64,000 bases of DNA from an uncultured Anaerolineales bacterium (lineage in GTDB: Bacteria; Chloroflexota; Anaerolineae; Aggregatilineales; Aggregatilineaceae): the NCBI GenBank assembly GCA_937135955.1, contig CAKZOB010000042.1, forward strand, positions 186,001-250,000, given 5' to 3'. The notes under the pieces are model-generated. The model did not search any database and was not told the DNA's origin. It saw only the letters and a list, made by a program, of their open reading frames with translations. This document shows positions 22,729 to 63,982 of this stretch, piece after piece (positions within the stretch are counted from its first letter, which is position 1; each line of letters starts with the position of its first letter). The translations under genes were made by a program, and so were the position numbers.

Positions 22729-22894
22729 GTTCAAGGGCGGACAGCCATTGAGAGCATCTCGAACGCTTAACTTACCTCACTCCCGCTTGGCGCTCACGCG
22801 CCTCGCTGCCCCCTCTCCGGGTCGGAGACTGGGGGTGAGGTAAACTGGAGCGAGCCAACCTTTACGCTTGCTCTAGCTCTGTCCGCCCCTGAAC
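22729..22894. mobile_element. MITE-like element with 16-bp terminal inverted repeats and 8-bp target duplication
   Basis: Terminal inverted repeats at 22729-22744 (GTTCAAGGGCGGACAG) and 22879-22894 match in 15 of 16 bases. Immediately outside lie TATTGCCC (22721-22728) and TATTGTCC (22895-22902), a probable 8-bp target duplication. The interior holds a shortened copy of the CCTCACCCCC palindromic core at 22772-22845. No reading frame inside. It separates the TPR and histidine kinase genes. Confidence 0.72.
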
Positions 22895-40895: not shown

Positions 40896-40935
40896 CCGTA
40901 GCGGGGGCGTGCGAAAAAAGGGCGGGGTGCAAAGG

Positions 40936-41151
40936 GGCGCGCGCAAACGGTGACGGGCAATGTGCAGCAGTCTGCTATCCCTCATCCCCAAATCCTCTCT
41001 GCCTCGCGACTGCGTCGCGGGGCGAGAGGACTTACTTTCTCTCACCTAGGCGCTCCCCTTCGCCCGTGTACAGCCTGCAGCGTGGGAGAAGGGGCCGGGG
41101 GATGAGGGTCATCGCCCGCAGCAAAGTCGCTGTCAACCTTTGCTCGCAGCC
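40936..41151. mobile_element. MITE-like element with imperfect terminal inverted repeats
   Basis: Left end GCGCGCAAACGGTGACGGGC pairs with the right end GTCAACCTTTGCTCGCAGCC as an imperfect inverted repeat of about 33 bp. The same ends bound the element at 49598-49790. The inside carries CCCTCATCCCC, the hairpin CGCGACTGCGTCGCG, and CCGGGGGATGAGGG. No coding frame. It fills most of the gap between the HEAT/Yip1 and phosphohexomutase genes. Confidence 0.7.
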
Positions 41152-43565: not shown

Positions 43566-43795
43566 TTTTGTGAAATGCCCCCTCAAAGGGAGCGCGAGCA
43601 AAGCTTCTCAGCGATTTGTCTGGTGCGGAGGCTTTACCTCACCCCCGCTCGGCGCTCGCGCGCCTCGCGCCCCCTCTCCGCGTCGGAGAGGGGGCAAGCC
43701 GAGCGAAGCAAGGCTGGGGGTGAGGTAAACCACAGCCCAGCAAACGGCCCATCACAGTTTGCGCGCACCTCTCAAATGGGGTGCATTTCAGGTTA
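43566..43795. mobile_element. Composite MITE-like element with CCTCACCCCC palindromic core
   Basis: Outer ends are inverted: TGTGAAATGCCCCCTCAAAG then GAGCGCGAGCAAAG on the left pair with TTTGCGCGCACC then TCAAATGGGGTGCATTTCA on the right. The core at 43633-43731 is the large palindrome TTTACCTCACCCCCGCTCGG ... GGGGGTGAGGTAAACC. Repeated flanking sequences occur: GGGTGCATTTCA at 43505 and 43779, and GCTGCGCCC-CTTGCAGACGGG at 43486-43507 and 43861-43882. No gene in the 492-bp gap between degV and the PBP2 gene. Confidence 0.65.
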
Positions 43796-49465: not shown

Positions 49466-49563
49466 TTGACCTCACCCCCACTCGGCGCTGGCGCGCCTCG
49501 CACCCCCTCTCCGACGCGGAGAGGGGGCAAGCCGAGCGGAGCGAGGCTGGGGGTGAGGTAAAG
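49466..49563. repeat. CCTCACCCCC palindromic core repeat
   Basis: About 98 bp: GACCTCACCCCCACTCGGCG ... CTCTCCGACGCGGAGAG ... GCTGGGGGTGAGGTAAAG. Same core as at 43633-43731, 51744-51842 and 62818-62917, here without outer terminal repeats. In the 622-bp gene-free stretch between secA and dnaE, which otherwise holds the element at 49598-49790. Confidence 0.75.
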
Positions 49564-49597: not shown

Positions 49598-49790
49598 GGG
49601 TGCGTACAAAAGGTGACAGGCGATTTGCAGCAGTCCGCTACCCCTCATCCCTACATCCCCTCTCCCTCGCGACTGCGTCGCGGGACGAGGGGACTTGCTT
49701 TCTGTCGTGCGAGTGCTCCCCTTCGCCCGCAGCGCGGGGGTGAGGGTCATCGGGCGGGGCAAAGCCGCTGACAACCTTTGCACGCACCCC
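49598..49790. mobile_element. MITE-like element with about 34-bp terminal inverted repeats
   Basis: Left end GGGTGCGTACAAAAGGTGAC and right end TGACAACCTTTGCACGCACC are inverted copies that continue inward to about 34 bp with few mismatches. The interior has CCCCTCATCCC, hairpin CGCGACTGCGTCGCG and GCGGGGGTGAGGG. Same layout as 40936-41151. No open frame, so mobilised in trans if at all. Confidence 0.75.
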
Positions 49791-49885: not shown

Positions 49886-52800
49886 CTACTCCGGCAGCTC
49901 CTCGATGATCACGTTTTCCTGGCCGAGCTTGCTAATCACCCGCTGCAAAGCTTCTTCATTGATCTGGATCGGGTGATTGGGGAAGTCCAGGCAGGCGCGC
50001 CGCCCGCCCCCCTGCACAATGAAGCGAAAACGATCCTGGCCGGGATACTCAGTCAGCACACCGTGCAGCCAGCGCAGCTTACGTTGGTCGGCGGTAGAAT
50101 CGCCGGAGCGCGTGACGATCAGGGTGAGCCGACGGCGCGGCTGCGGCGCGTCGGGTGCCGGTTGTGCAGCGCGCTCCTGACGGGCGGGCACAGGCGGCAG
50201 CGCATCGGGGCCTTGCACTTCCTGCGAGGCTACGCGGCGAACCTGGGGCAATTCCGCAGATCGCAGTGCTACCTCTTCCGCCTCCATTTCCGCCAAGACC
50301 CACTCAGGCACCTCGCGATCTGTCAAGGGGGGCGGCTCCGCCGACCCTGTCAGGTGCCCGGTTGGGACAACACCAGCCCCTGCCTCATAAGGCGCGCCCT
50401 CCTCCGGAGGCTCGCCCCAGACAAACGAAGTCGTGTTGTCCGCAACAGTTTCGCCTTTTTCCTCCTCGTAGACGCCGCCGTTCTCGCCGTTTTCGCTGCC
50501 CACCTCGCTATCGCGCAGCCAGCGCCCACCAGCCATGCTCAGGGGAGGCATTTCGGCGGGTTCGACGAGTTCGAAATTCTGGGTGACCGAATCAACGATG
50601 ATCTGCACATCCCCGCGCGACATGTCCGCCTTGCCGCGCACGACCAGCACCGCGTCTTCGTCCACGATTTCCCTGCACTGCTCCCAGGTGCGCGGGAACA
50701 TCACCGCGCTGATCGTGCCGGTGATATCCTCGATGGTCATGACAGCCATCGGCTCGCCACGCTTGGTGAAGAAGGTACGCAGGTTGGTCACCAGGCCAGC
50801 GATGGTCACTGGCTGCCCCTGGATAGCCTCGCCCGCTTCGATCAGGTCGGCGCTGGTATGGGTGATGACGCGCTGAAGCTGCCCCATGACCGCTTTAAGG
50901 GGGTGATCGGTCACATAGAGACCTACCAGTTCGCGTTCCCAGTTGAGCATCTCGCGCTGAGGGATATTTTCTACTTCGTGGAGATGGGCCAGGATGCTCT
51001 CGTGCGCGCCGAAGGAAACACCGGTCGTCTCGCCGAACAGGCTCATCTGCCCCAGGTCTTTGGCCTTGTGATACTCCACAGAAAAGCTGACGATACGGTC
51101 GAGCGCGGCCAACAACACCGGACGGCTGGCGAATTCGTCCAGCGCCCCCACTTTGATCAGCGACTCCAGGGCGCGCTTGTTGACGATGCGCGCATCCACG
51201 CGGCGGCAATAGTCTTCCAGATCGCGGAAGGGGCCACCCAGGCGGCGCTGTTCGAGGATATGCTCTGCCGGGCCGATTCCCAGATTCTTGATCGCGCCCA
51301 GGCCGAAGCGAATCGCCCGCGTGCCGTCCGGCTGCGGCTCGATGCTGAAGTCCAGCTCGCTGTTGTTGACGGTAGGCGGCAACACAGCAATGCCCATGCG
51401 ATGGCAGTCGGCAGCGAAGAGGCCGATCTTGGCCGAATCGTCGCGGTGCACGCTCATCAGCGCGGCCATGTACTCGTGCGGATAGTGACACTTGAGGAAA
51501 GCCGTCTGGCAGGTCAGCACGGCATAGTCAGCGGCGTGCGAGTTGTGGACAAGGATGTCGTTGGCAACAAAGTTGTGCGTATCGGGGACAGTGAGGTCGT
51601 ATGTCTCCGCCTCGCCCGCGTACTCGATCGAAACAATCCTATCCCAATAGATGTCGCCGGCGGCAGGCGTATCTGTATCAGCCAGTCGCAGGGCCGTATT
51701 GCGATACGCTCCTACCGACAAATCACCCGACGCGCGGGTGTAGACCTCACCCCCGGCCTCGCCATGCTCGGCCTGCCCCCTCTCCATGCATGAAGAGGGG
51801 GCAACGAGGCGCGCCAGCGCCGAGTGGGGGTGAGGTAAACCAGGCCGCGTCACACTCAAGGAAGAACGATCTACCTGTGGCAGGTCATTGACCACCCAGG
51901 TATCTGCAACATGTTGCACGCGACACAGAACGCCCAGCCGCAGCCATAGATGCTGGAGTTGCTGCGCTAGGCGGCGTGAAGCTGTCACCAGTTGACCGTC
52001 CGTTGCGCTGCGCTCCCACAGTCGCATGAGTAGACGCGCGACACATGAGTTCGCCAGCCCGAAGATCTCGTCGGGCAAAGCGGTCGTCGGGCAGTCAAGA
52101 GCCAGCGAATCAGCCAGAGCCATCATCGCTTGTTCCGGCCACTCGTTGCGGCCTTCCACAGGAATCCGGCGCGGCACGGCAATCGTATCGCCGACGCTCA
52201 ACTCGCTCAGCAAACGCCAGCCGTCTTGGGTGTAGAAAGGATGGTTGGCCGTTGCTGTGATCTGCCGCCCCAGTTGGGTGCTCAGGCGATAGACTGGCCT
52301 GACACCATTGGCCATCACCTGAGTGACTGGACCGGATCGGAAGGTGAGCCGTCCCAGCTCGCAGGTCAACGTGTGTTCGATGCTTGCCGCGCCCGTTGCC
52401 AGGTCGCCCACGCGCACCAGCCGACCACTTGCCGCATCCACGATCTCCGTGTCCGCCACAACACACTTGTTGAAACCATACCGCGCGAAGAACTCGATGT
52501 CGTCGAAGATGGCGTTGGCCGTGTCGGGGTCTACGCCATGCTGCGGCCCGCGCTCGATGAAGATCGTGCGATGCTTGAGCAGGTCTTCTTTCTTCTTTTT
52601 GGAAACAGCACGGCGCATCAGATCGGCTTCGCCCAGCGAATAGCCGAACAGTTCCGCGCCGATCTGCATAATCTGCTCCTGGTAGACGATGATGCCGTAA
52701 GTTTCTTCCAGGATGGGCCGCAGCTTCTCGTGTTTGTATTCGACCGGCTCTTCCCCATGCAGACGCCGGTTGTAGCTGGGGATATACTCCATCGGGCCGG

Positions 52801-54781
52801 GGCGGTAGAGCGCCAGCCCGGCGACAATATGCTCGAAGCGGGTGGGCCGCATATCCGTCAACATGCGCCGCATCCCCTGCGACTCAAGCTGGAAGACGCC
52901 CACCGTCTCGCCGCGCCCCAGCATCTCAAACATCTGCTCGACCTTGCGCGTCACTTCGGGGTTGTCCGGATCGGGCCGATAGGGAATGTTCGACAGATCG
53001 TAGTGCACACCGTGATAGCGCTCGATCAGCTCGCACGCGCGCCGCATGATCGTCAGCGTGGAAAGCCCCAGAAAGTCCACCTTGAGCAGTCCGATCGACT
53101 CGCAGGTCTCCATAGGGAACTGCGTGACCATCTTGACGGGCGCATCCTCTGCCGAGCCTTTGGTCGGGCGGTGCAGCGGGATGTATTCGACCAGCGGCTT
53201 GTCGGCCACGATCACGCCGGCGGCGTGCGTGCTGGCGTGCCGGGTGATCCCCTCAAGCTGGCGAGCGGTGTCAATCAGACGGCGGGCGGTCGGATCGTTT
53301 TCATAAGCCGCTTTCAGGTCGGGCAGCGCCTTCTCTGGGTCGTCGCCCAGGGCATCTTCGAACTTGATCGGCTTGCCCGCCGTGGGAATGAGGCGAGCGA
53401 TGCGGTCTACTTCGGTAGGCGGCAAGTCCAGGGCGCGGCCCACGTCGCGGATGGCGGCCTTGCTGCCCAGCGTCCCGAAGGTGATGATGGCCGCGACCTT
53501 GTCTTCGCCGTACTTCTGGGCGCAATACTGGATCATCTCGGCGCGACGGTCTTCCGGGAAGTCCAGGTCTATGTCGGGCATGGAGACGCGCCCAGGGTTG
53601 AGGAAGCGCTCGAAGAGCAGGCCGTTGGTCAGCGGGTCTATGTTGGTGATGCCCAGGCAATAGGCGGCCAGGCTGCCCGCGCCCGACCCGCGCACGTTCC
53701 ACCAGATATCGGCATGGCGGGCGAACTCGCACAGGTCCCACACGATCAGGAAATAGGTATCGAAGCCCATCTCGTGAATGATGTGCAGTTCATAGTCCAG
53801 CCGCCCGCGAATGGACGGTTCGTCGGCGCGCGCGCCATAGCGCCAGCGCAAACCACGCTCGCACAGATGACGCAGATAGCTGGCGGGCGTGAACCCCTCC
53901 GGCACCGGGAAGACGGGCAGATGATAGCCGTCCGAGTCCAGGTTGACGTCGCACATTTCGGCGATCAACAGGGTGTTGGTGAGCGCTTCCGGCACGTGAT
54001 GGAACAGCTCCCACATCTCCGGGATGGAGCGCAGGTGAAAGGTCTGGCTTTCGAAGCGCAGGCGGTTGCGGTCGGCCTTGACGCTGCCGGTCTGAATGCA
54101 CAGCAGGGTGTCGTGAATGTCGTAATCTTCCGCCAGCACGTAGTGCACGTCATTGGTAGCCACCAGCGGCACCTGCGCATAGTGTTGATGCTCTAGCAGC
54201 CAGCGGTTGAGTTGATGCAATATAGCGATGTCATGATGCTGCAGTTCCAGGAAGAAATTGTCGCGTCCGAACACCTCCTGGTACCAACCGATGCGCTCCA
54301 GCGCTTCCCTTTCGCGCCCCTCCTGCACCAAGCGGGGAATCTCCGCCGCCAGGCAGCCGGAGGTCGCGATCAACCCCTCGGCGTGCTGCGCCAGGAACTC
54401 ATGATCAATGCGCGGGTTGCGGTAATAGCCCTCCAGTTGCGCCGCAGAGGCCAGTTTGAGCAGGTTCTTATAGCCGGTCTGATCCCGCGCCAGCAACAGC
54501 AGATGGTAGGAGCGAGCTTCTGGGTCGCTGTCGCGGTCGCGCATGGAACGCCCCCAGGGGGTAATGTACGCTTCCATGCCGATGATGGGCTTGATCCCTT
54601 GGGCGCGGCAGGCGCGGTAGAAGTCAATCACGCCGAACATTGCGCCGTGATCGGTGATGGCCAGTGCGGGCATGTCCAGCTCTTTGGCACGTCTGACCAG
54701 CCTGTTAATCTGGCTCAGACCGTCCAGCAGGCTGTATTCTGTGTGCACGTGAAGATGGACGAAGTTCTCGGCATCGGTCAT
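49886..54781 (-). CDS. dnaE: DNA polymerase III alpha subunit with in-frame intein
   Basis: A 1631-residue precursor: N-extein 1-772, intein 773-1080, C-extein 1081-1631, giving about 1323 residues after splicing. N-terminal PHP domain has FVHLHVHTEYSLLDG; the catalytic Asp motif is MPDIDLDFPEDRR; the thumb and finger part continues to RYGFNK, where the intein interrupts before SHAADYA. The C-terminal part has an OB fold (VTIAGLVTNL) and a long acidic, Pro-rich linker before a final domain. Replicative polymerase of the chromosome. ATG 54781 lies 10 bases after GAGGAAA; the TATAAT box is at 54837-54842. Confidence 0.96.
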   Translation of the reverse strand: MTDAENFVHLHVHTEYSLLDGLSQINRLVRRAKELDMPALAITDHGAMFGVIDFYRACRAQGIKPIIGMEAYITPWGRSMRDRDSDPEARSYHLLLLARDQTGYKNLLKLASAAQLEGYYRNPRIDHEFLAQHAEGLIATSGCLAAEIPRLVQEGREREALERIGWYQEVFGRDNFFLELQHHDIAILHQLNRWLLEHQHYAQVPLVATNDVHYVLAEDYDIHDTLLCIQTGSVKADRNRLRFESQTFHLRSIPEMWELFHHVPEALTNTLLIAEMCDVNLDSDGYHLPVFPVPEGFTPASYLRHLCERGLRWRYGARADEPSIRGRLDYELHIIHEMGFDTYFLIVWDLCEFARHADIWWNVRGSGAGSLAAYCLGITNIDPLTNGLLFERFLNPGRVSMPDIDLDFPEDRRAEMIQYCAQKYGEDKVAAIITFGTLGSKAAIRDVGRALDLPPTEVDRIARLIPTAGKPIKFEDALGDDPEKALPDLKAAYENDPTARRLIDTARQLEGITRHASTHAAGVIVADKPLVEYIPLHRPTKGSAEDAPVKMVTQFPMETCESIGLLKVDFLGLSTLTIMRRACELIERYHGVHYDLSNIPYRPDPDNPEVTRKVEQMFEMLGRGETVGVFQLESQGMRRMLTDMRPTRFEHIVAGLALYRPGPMEYIPSYNRRLHGEEPVEYKHEKLRPILEETYGIIVYQEQIMQIGAELFGYSLGEADLMRRAVSKKKKEDLLKHRTIFIERGPQHGVDPDTANAIFDDIEFFARYGFNKCVVADTEIVDAASGRLVRVGDLATGAASIEHTLTCELGRLTFRSGPVTQVMANGVRPVYRLSTQLGRQITATANHPFYTQDGWRLLSELSVGDTIAVPRRIPVEGRNEWPEQAMMALADSLALDCPTTALPDEIFGLANSCVARLLMRLWERSATDGQLVTASRRLAQQLQHLWLRLGVLCRVQHVADTWVVNDLPQVDRSSLSVTRPGLPHPHSALARLVAPSSCMERGQAEHGEAGGEVYTRASGDLSVGAYRNTALRLADTDTPAAGDIYWDRIVSIEYAGEAETYDLTVPDTHNFVANDILVHNSHAADYAVLTCQTAFLKCHYPHEYMAALMSVHRDDSAKIGLFAADCHRMGIAVLPPTVNNSELDFSIEPQPDGTRAIRFGLGAIKNLGIGPAEHILEQRRLGGPFRDLEDYCRRVDARIVNKRALESLIKVGALDEFASRPVLLAALDRIVSFSVEYHKAKDLGQMSLFGETTGVSFGAHESILAHLHEVENIPQREMLNWERELVGLYVTDHPLKAVMGQLQRVITHTSADLIEAGEAIQGQPVTIAGLVTNLRTFFTKRGEPMAVMTIEDITGTISAVMFPRTWEQCREIVDEDAVLVVRGKADMSRGDVQIIVDSVTQNFELVEPAEMPPLSMAGGRWLRDSEVGSENGENGGVYEEEKGETVADNTTSFVWGEPPEEGAPYEAGAGVVPTGHLTGSAEPPPLTDREVPEWVLAEMEAEEVALRSAELPQVRRVASQEVQGPDALPPVPARQERAAQPAPDAPQPRRRLTLIVTRSGDSTADQRKLRWLHGVLTEYPGQDRFRFIVQGGGRRACLDFPNHPIQINEEALQRVISKLGQENVIIEELPE
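51542..52465 (-). other. DnaE intein (308 residues), endonuclease remnant, carries palindromic repeat
   Basis: Begins at Cys1 (CVVADTEI) after FNK and ends VHN before Ser+1 (SHAADYA). Splicing blocks look complete: Cys1, block B ITATANHPFYT with His75, block F TYDLTVPDTHNF, and His307-Asn308-Ser. Between the blocks, residues 108-187 (LPDEIFGLANSCVARLLMRL then SRRLAQQLQHLWLRLG) resemble the C-terminal half of a LAGLIDADG homing endonuclease of DnaE/DnaB inteins, but the two LAGLIDADG helices with their acidic residues are not visible, so it is probably inactive. Residues 208-243 are encoded by the genomic repeat at 51744-51842. Confidence 0.92.
51744..51842. repeat. CCTCACCCCC palindromic core inside intein gene, in frame
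   Basis: GACCTCACCCCCGGCCTCGC ... CTCTCCATGCATGAAGAG ... GCCGAGTGGGGGTGAGGTAAAC, the same core as at 43633-43731, 49466-49563 and 62818-62917. On the coding (minus) strand it adds about 34 residues (PGLPHPHSALARLVAPSS and onward) without a stop or frameshift. The copy at 62818-62917 read on the plus strand would give the related LPHPRSALARLAAPSPRRGE. Confidence 0.9.
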
Positions 54782-54836
54782 CGGGTATTTTCCTCGGTGC
54801 ACGCGAAGTCGAACAAAGATGCGAGGGCTTGCGGCC

Positions 54837-54842
54837 ATTATA
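54837..54842 (-). promoter_or_regulatory. -10 box TATAAT of dnaE
   Basis: Perfect TATAAT on the minus strand; leader about 50 bases with a good ribosome site. Confidence 0.55.
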
Positions 54843-56994: not shown

Positions 56995-57124
56995 CATCTT
57001 GAGCCGATGCCCCTCATCCCCCGGCCCCTTCTCCCGCGGTGTATGTATAGACTGGAGAGGGGATTCAGGGGTGAGGGGCAGCAAACCGCAGCAAACGGCC
57101 TGTCACAGTTTGCACGCACCCTGG
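56995..57124. repeat. Repeat with one MITE-type end, between protease gene and small gene
   Basis: CCCCTCATCCCCCGGCCCCT ... GGATTCAGGGGTGAGGGGCA, followed by the right-end sequence CAGCAAACGGCCTGTCACAG and TTTGCACGCACC, like the end of 49598-49790. The left end is missing, so it is a truncated copy. It lies in the 359-bp gap before the gene at 57286; that gap also has TATAAT at 57155-57160. Confidence 0.6.
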
Positions 57125-57154
57125 GCGCGAGACCCATTCCCCACCCGAATAGTC

Positions 57155-62779: not shown

Positions 62780-62957
62780 GTGGATGCGCGCAAAAAGCGT
62801 CAGGCAGTTCGCCGCGCTTTACCTCACCCTCGCTCGGCGCTGGCGCGCCTCGCTGCCCCCTCCCCGCGTCGGGGAGAAGGCAAGCCGAGCGAAGCGAGGC
62901 GGGGGGGTGAGGTGAACCAAAATGCAGCAAACAGTCTGTCAACCTTTGCTCGCACCC
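62780..62957. mobile_element. Composite MITE-like element carrying the palindromic core
   Basis: Left end GATGCGCGCAAAAAGCGTCA and right end TGTCAACCTTTGCTCGCACC are related inverted ends (GGTGCGnGCAAAGGTTGACA form). The core at 62818-62917 is the CCTCACCCTCGCTCGGCG ... GCGGGGGGGTGAGGTGAACC palindrome. It fills most of the 424-bp gap between the TPR/Cys-rich gene and the secreted protein gene. TATACT at 63054-63059 may be the -10 of the latter. Confidence 0.65.
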
Positions 62958-63097: not shown

Positions 63098-63982
63098 ATG
63101 TATCGCAGACTGGGATACGCGCTGCTTCTGGTGACTGTGCTGGCGTTGCTGGCCATGCCCACGCCCGCCCGTGCGGCGAATGCGTTGGGGCCGCGCGCCA
63201 TGCTCTATGCCTACTACGACCTGATCAACACGCGCAATTATTGGGCGGCCTATCAGCAGTGGGTCAACCCGCCGCAGACTTACGCCAATTTCGTGGCGGG
63301 CTATGGCGACACCGCCTCGGTCGCAGCGTACTTCGGCGGCTTCCAGCCCGGCGCAATCAACGGCATCGAAGGGCGTGTGCCGGGCGTGTTGATCGGCTAC
63401 CGCACCAACGGCACCATGGCCGCCTTCAGCGGTTGTTACCAGGTACGCTATAACCCCGCTGGCGTGGGCATGGCACAGTGGTTGATCACTGGCGCGAACT
63501 TCCGCCAACTGCCCGCTGTGCCCGATCAGGCCACTATCTGGCAGCAGACGCTCGACACGTGGTGCTACGGCGCGCCCTACTCCGAAAGCTACGCCAGCGT
63601 GCAACAAATGCTGCTGGACTATATCGAGGCGGTCAACCGGGGTGACTACGCCGATGCCTACACCCTATGGATCGTTCCGCCGCAGTCGTATCAGCAGTTC
63701 GTCAGCGGCTGGGCCGACACCAGCGAGACGGTGCTGTTCTACGGGAGCTACCAGTACAGCGGTCTGCTCAGCGGGGCGGAGACGGGACGGGTGCCAGTGG
63801 TGATGCTCGGTTACCACACGGACGGGAGCCTGGTAGCGTATCAGGGGTGCCTGGGAGTGAACTACAACCCGACCCTGGCGCGGCGCTGGAGCCTGTACCG
63901 TGTCTATTTGCGTCCCCTGCCTTTTGTGGAGACACCCGACGCCTATAGCATCTTCAACGCGCTGGCGGCGTCGTGTTATTGA
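63098..63982 (+). CDS. Secreted protein with duplicated domain
   Basis: A 294-residue protein with a signal peptide (residues 1-26, ending ARA). ATG 63098 follows GGGGAG. The mature part is a tandem duplication of about 115 residues: YYDLINTRNYWAAYQQWVNP, YGDTASVAAYFGGF, GRVPGVLIGYRTNGTMAAFS and GCYQVRYNP recur as YIEAVNRGDYADAYTLWIVP, WADTSETVLFYGSY, GRVPVVMLGYHTDGSLVAYQ and GCLGVNYNP. Each unit resembles a cystatin/NTF2-like cone with a helix and sheet. Function unknown. An upstream extension would read through the repeat and is not used. Confidence 0.85.
   Translation: MYRRLGYALLLVTVLALLAMPTPARAANALGPRAMLYAYYDLINTRNYWAAYQQWVNPPQTYANFVAGYGDTASVAAYFGGFQPGAINGIEGRVPGVLIGYRTNGTMAAFSGCYQVRYNPAGVGMAQWLITGANFRQLPAVPDQATIWQQTLDTWCYGAPYSESYASVQQMLLDYIEAVNRGDYADAYTLWIVPPQSYQQFVSGWADTSETVLFYGSYQYSGLLSGAETGRVPVVMLGYHTDGSLVAYQGCLGVNYNPTLARRWSLYRVYLRPLPFVETPDAYSIFNALAASCY

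Follow-up and report, generated by a model that had tools for sequence, protein, structure and literature searches.

The dnaE gene and its intein

The window, a stretch of 64,000 nucleotides from the genome of an uncultured Anaerolineales bacterium (G000), contains dnaE, an essential replication gene, whose 1650-aa frame is open from end to end and includes an intein (Table 1). The intein matches Pfam PF14890 (E 1.8e-23) as well as the NCBIfam models of the N- and C-terminal regions of inteins. All of its splicing blocks are present, with Cys1, TANH as block B (TxxH), the C-terminal HN and the +1 Ser, as the first-pass annotation of this DNA had stated. Compared with 426-aa orthologues, it is not a full-length LAGLIDADG intein: its endonuclease motifs are deleted or degraded, of which the first LAGLIDADG half is missing and the second half has lost the WEGDG motif. 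G000 also has a second intein at another site (C54:99526-100071), inside a 648-aa frame.

Table 1. Features of the window around the dnaE intein and copies of the type A palindrome
Feature	Position	Strand	Extent or context	Basis
dnaE (DNA polymerase III alpha) ORF	49886-54838	-	1650 aa including the intein	
Intein	51542-52465	-	308 aa, C1...HN308, +1 Ser	Pfam, NCBIfam, orthologue alignment
N-terminal splicing (HINT) part	52166-52465	-	residues ~1-100	pLDDT >90; PDB matches to DnaB and RecA mini-inteins
Homing endonuclease remnant	51881-52153	-	residues ~105-195	alignment with 426-aa full-length orthologues; folded in model
Type A palindromic element, in frame	51743-51839	-	residues 209-241, LPHPHSALARLVAPSSCMERGQAEHGEAGGEV	pLDDT <50
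Degraded type B palindrome	51688-51715	-	GTAGGAGCGTATCGCAATACGGCCCTGC (VGAYRNTAL)	homologous to clean G017 GTGGGAGCGTATTGCAATACGCCCCTAC
C-terminal splicing part	51542-51661	-	residues 269-308	NCBIfam, orthologue alignment, AlphaFold
Type A copy	43633-43729	+	intergenic	
Type A copy	49466-49562	+	intergenic, between secA and dnaE	
Type A copy	62818-62914	+	upstream of gene apparently starting near 63100	
Partial type A copy	22772-22816			

The intein holds two palindromes. The type A element is a 97-nt palindrome that aligns over 97-99 nt with the three complete copies elsewhere in the window at 82-86% identity (genome-scaled E 4e-18 to 5e-24), and its fold z-score is -7.06. Similarity, fold score and dispersed copies all agree with the earlier claim of a genomic palindromic repeat lying in frame in the dnaE intein, and comparison with the other copies in the window added the partial one at 22772. 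The repeat had been placed at residues 208-243; its presence stands, and the coordinates narrow its ends to residues 209-241. The other copies had been described as intergenic, which holds for those at 43633 and 49466, the one at 62818 being located upstream of an apparent gene. The second palindrome is a degraded copy of type B, a short stem-loop with GTAG at one end and many copies. It is common to the intein of the congener G017, which has an orthologous type B palindrome (GTAGGGGC...GCCCCTAC).

An AlphaFold model of the intein was built with 16 orthologues. In the model, the splicing part adopts a HINT fold, of which the best PDB matches are the Ssp DnaB mini-intein and VMA inteins. The pLDDT values exceed 90 in the splicing fold and over most of what remains of the endonuclease, and drop below 50 in residues 196-267, where both repeats lie. 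Thus, residues 196-267, including the type A element, are predicted to be unstructured. The annotation had also held that splicing must tolerate about 34 extra residues. With the element in a predicted disordered stretch beside the endonuclease remnant and the splicing fold untouched, there would be hardly anything for that fold to tolerate.

Type A elements across the genome

At least 40 scored type A copies, the intein copy included, were found in the whole G000 genome (4.28 Mb, 93 contigs). None of the 33 other genome copies inspected was inside a recognisable gene. The longest frames spanning these 33 copies were 158, 167 and 440 aa, the last of which reflects the position of the 62818 copy upstream of its apparent gene. 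In most copies 3 or 4 of the 6 frames are open, so that read-through of a copy is easy.

Type A elements are ~97-99 nt long and have 14-nt terminal inverted repeats (TTTACCTCACCCCC/GGGGGTGAGGTAAA). Their ends read TTTACC and GGTAAA, with the end sequence TTTACCTCACC, and neither end carries GTAG. A 5-bp direct repeat, GGCGG, was found at only one empty/filled pair of sites, a second pair not being clear-cut. The repeat had no match in Rfam at the gathering score. In loci L001-L030, type A cores are nested within larger composite palindromes of several kinds, whose outer arms are ATCGCATCAAA/TTTGATGCAAT, CCCCTCAAAC... or GGGGCGGACAG/CTGTCCGCCCC. Other intergenic palindromes, of 132-nt and 54-nt families, occur in the window at 40935-41151, 49598-49789 and 57004-57125 and sometimes adjoin type A. 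Two ORFs, L050 (400 aa) and L216 (338 aa), terminate at the distal end of a type A copy, where GGTAAA supplies the stop codon; these may be C-terminal extensions.

Orthologous inteins at the same dnaE site

The comparison of inteins at this position covered the order and class, in part through metagenome assemblies under the labels Anaerolineae, Anaerolineales or Chloroflexi, and gave 79 distinct inteins. Fifty-five full-length inteins retain the endonuclease domain and measure 411-454 aa, nearly all of them 420-432 aa; the other 24, of 141-383 aa, have lost the endonuclease or have it cut down. The alignment of homologues that the annotation had proposed showed residues 209-241 to be missing from all the other orthologous inteins compared, save that of the congener G014, which is filled at the same position. 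The type A insertion is absent from the inteins of two further congeners, G017 and G015, and G016 had no match at the dnaE intein site.

That the segment is native to the intein and the genomic repeats are derived from it is the least probable of the alternatives considered. Similarity alone would fit this direction, but the segment is missing from full-length and truncated orthologues, and the element is abundant in G015, whose intein is without it.

In G014 the intein copy (L033, G014:C240) reads into a TAG, and the contig ends within the repeat; the TAG may be a genuine stop or an assembly error at the repeat end. Short repeats are known to break or misjoin metagenome assemblies, and a misjoin of repeat reads inside dnaE might be suspected from this contig end. 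Such an artefact is, however, hardly credible: the left junction of the insertion is homologous between the window intein and that of the independently assembled G014, and divergence sets the intein copy apart from the remaining G000 copies, its ATGCAT loop and its length being like those of the coding copies in congeners.

The insert, the loss of the endonuclease and the stop met by the G014 copy could also be read as signs that splicing has been lost, with dnaE disrupted and another polymerase gene serving the cell. This we regard as very unlikely, since the window ORF is wholly open, the splicing residues and the predicted fold are kept, and truncated inteins with open frames were found in many lineages.

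Palindromes in other truncated inteins

Repeats were also found in the vacated endonuclease region of the inteins of G017, G001, G008, G013, G043 and G066. The repeat of G001 is translated as VGAIHELPLR; the G008 intein has three repeats, of which two are type A-like and one is type B, and those of G013 and G043 have two each. These segments are dispersed elsewhere in their own genomes, most weakly in G013 and G066. The palindromes in inteins represent at least two repeat families and six genera. A segment in the G041 intein, whose dispersed matches were only weak, was left uncounted.

Dispersed palindromes were present in 8 of the 24 truncated inteins and in 1 of the 55 full-length ones (Fisher p 0.0002), the latter having been screened by motif and length rather than each against its own genome. 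With the genus of the window counted once, the numbers were 6/22 and 1/55 (p 0.0018). A generic hairpin score separated full-length from truncated inteins poorly, and the counts were therefore based on repeat motifs, dispersal and length.

The single full-length case, the 454-aa intein of G316 (L182), carries a different dispersed element of 85 bp with more than 40 copies in its genome. It lies at about residues 312-340, in the C-terminal part of the endonuclease. Repeats are thus not exclusive to truncated inteins, and endonuclease loss is no strict prerequisite. On a tree of the splicing parts, which has few columns and weak support, repeat presence changes at least 7 times and truncation at least 15 times; when starred branches are considered, only 2 independent pairs are left. 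Whether endonuclease-less inteins are a recurrent landing place, where different palindrome families repeatedly fill the vacated region, is in our judgment an evenly balanced question. If they are, such inteins would record, almost neutrally, how active the elements are within an essential gene, and repeats would there turn into new protein segments.

The same element in membrane proteins

With the intein sequence as protein query, the same peptide was retrieved in long frames of congeners. Five further in-frame sites within the genus were convincing. All five are in multi-helix proteins, four of which have weak to good PMT_2 matches. In L058 (G015), the insert is 150 nt with GGCGG on each side, and five aligned orthologues are without it. 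Similarly, L214 is filled in G014 and empty in five orthologues, and L218/L219 are filled in G017 and G015 and empty in G016. L213 is filled in G014 and has shorter variants in G000 and G015, and L055 is an in-frame type A site of G014; the corresponding loops of these two proteins in relatives contain other palindromes or none. By hydropathy the inserts fall between predicted helices, roughly so for L055 and L058. Other long ORFs spanning copies (L217, L224, L225, L226, L272, L274, L275 and L277) were rejected, as they had no family match or were spurious-looking GC-rich frames.

These sites bear on why the insert in dnaE is tolerated. The first-pass annotation had ascribed this to the self-removal of the intein, through which the insertion would cost the polymerase nothing. 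The same element also interrupts, in frame, membrane proteins that undergo no splicing; therefore, tolerance does not require self-removal, and the explanation finds no support in that form.

Inteins can respond to conditions, and the hairpin or its charged peptide could regulate the expression or splicing of dnaE, the repeat being kept by positive selection. Its retention in two congeners and the single reading frame shared by the six internal insertion sites found would agree with such a role. A uniform frame is, however, expected, since the search query contained that frame, and selection for the frame was not accepted as a reading; searches with two of the other open frames returned only terminal or antisense-looking ORFs and no convincing internal insertion. 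Moreover, the element and its neighbours vary among close relatives, in which other families or no repeat are found. We consider a regulatory role improbable, if the least so of the alternatives.

Probable course of insertion and persistence of the element

The repeat and its frame, the orthologous insertion, the empty sites elsewhere, the enrichment in endonuclease-less inteins and the predicted disorder are very probably to be explained by a non-autonomous palindromic element that entered the dnaE intein in frame once the endonuclease of the intein had decayed and that has persisted as unconstrained sequence. The homing endonuclease would have decayed first. A palindrome of ~97-99 nt, presumably transposed in trans by some enzyme, would then have been inserted before G000 and G014 split. 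Translation of the insert would yield a charged peptide without structure in the loop that joins the two splicing-fold halves, and the insert may persist because this loop is almost unconstrained and the splicing fold is untouched. Splicing is probably normal and the insert neutral. Selection on dnaE would purge only insertions that are out of frame or contain stops, and the same element may settle in other unconstrained places, such as intergenic DNA and the loops of membrane proteins.

Comparison with known elements

Rickettsia palindromic elements (RPEs) are inserted in frame in proteins (PMC10969869, PMC2229807). The parallel with them, already drawn in the annotation, is apt and is strengthened by the five membrane-protein sites with their empty orthologues. 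Similar to RPEs, which were compared by description, the elements are dispersed palindromes of ~100-150 bp that lie between genes as well as in frame within proteins. Unlike RPEs, they belong to another phylum, most copies in G000 are intergenic and one site is an intein. Their presence in frame in several unrelated proteins holds narrowly, the hosts other than the intein being mostly PMT_2-like.

GTAG/CGTC REPs occur inside genes, including replication and repair genes, and one is in dnaE of R. conorii; GTAG repeats are found in Chloroflexi too (PMC3733652). The word intein is absent from the main text of that paper. The type B palindromes resemble these REPs in being dispersed and beginning with GTAG, whereas type A is without the GTAG tag and two to three times longer. 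With MITEs, type A shares short length, terminal inverted repeats, many copies and a possible 5-bp target duplication at one site. The likeness to IStrons (PMC4227781) is one of logic only, mobile DNA being harmless through self-removal of the segment that holds it. An IStron carries its own ribozyme, whereas here an unrelated repeat lies within a protein intein. In-frame palindromes in proteins are thus already known; our literature search, of incomplete coverage, turned up none described within an intein.

With in-frame palindromes the question has arisen of whether repeats give rise to new protein segments or proteins simply put up with them. In this genus, orthologues with and without the insert exist for several proteins and also for an intein. 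In the latter the inserted peptide departs with the intein, so that tolerance and any benefit are open to direct comparison. In the homing cycle of inteins, the endonuclease decays and is deleted, with splicing retained (PMC8966425). Different from that account, foreign repeats fill the vacated region here, which adds to the cycle a step in which other mobile DNA can occupy the space of the decayed endonuclease. Within the genus of the window, G015 has a full-length dnaE intein (L036) and its close relative G017 a truncated one (L032), which looks like a homing cycle under way.
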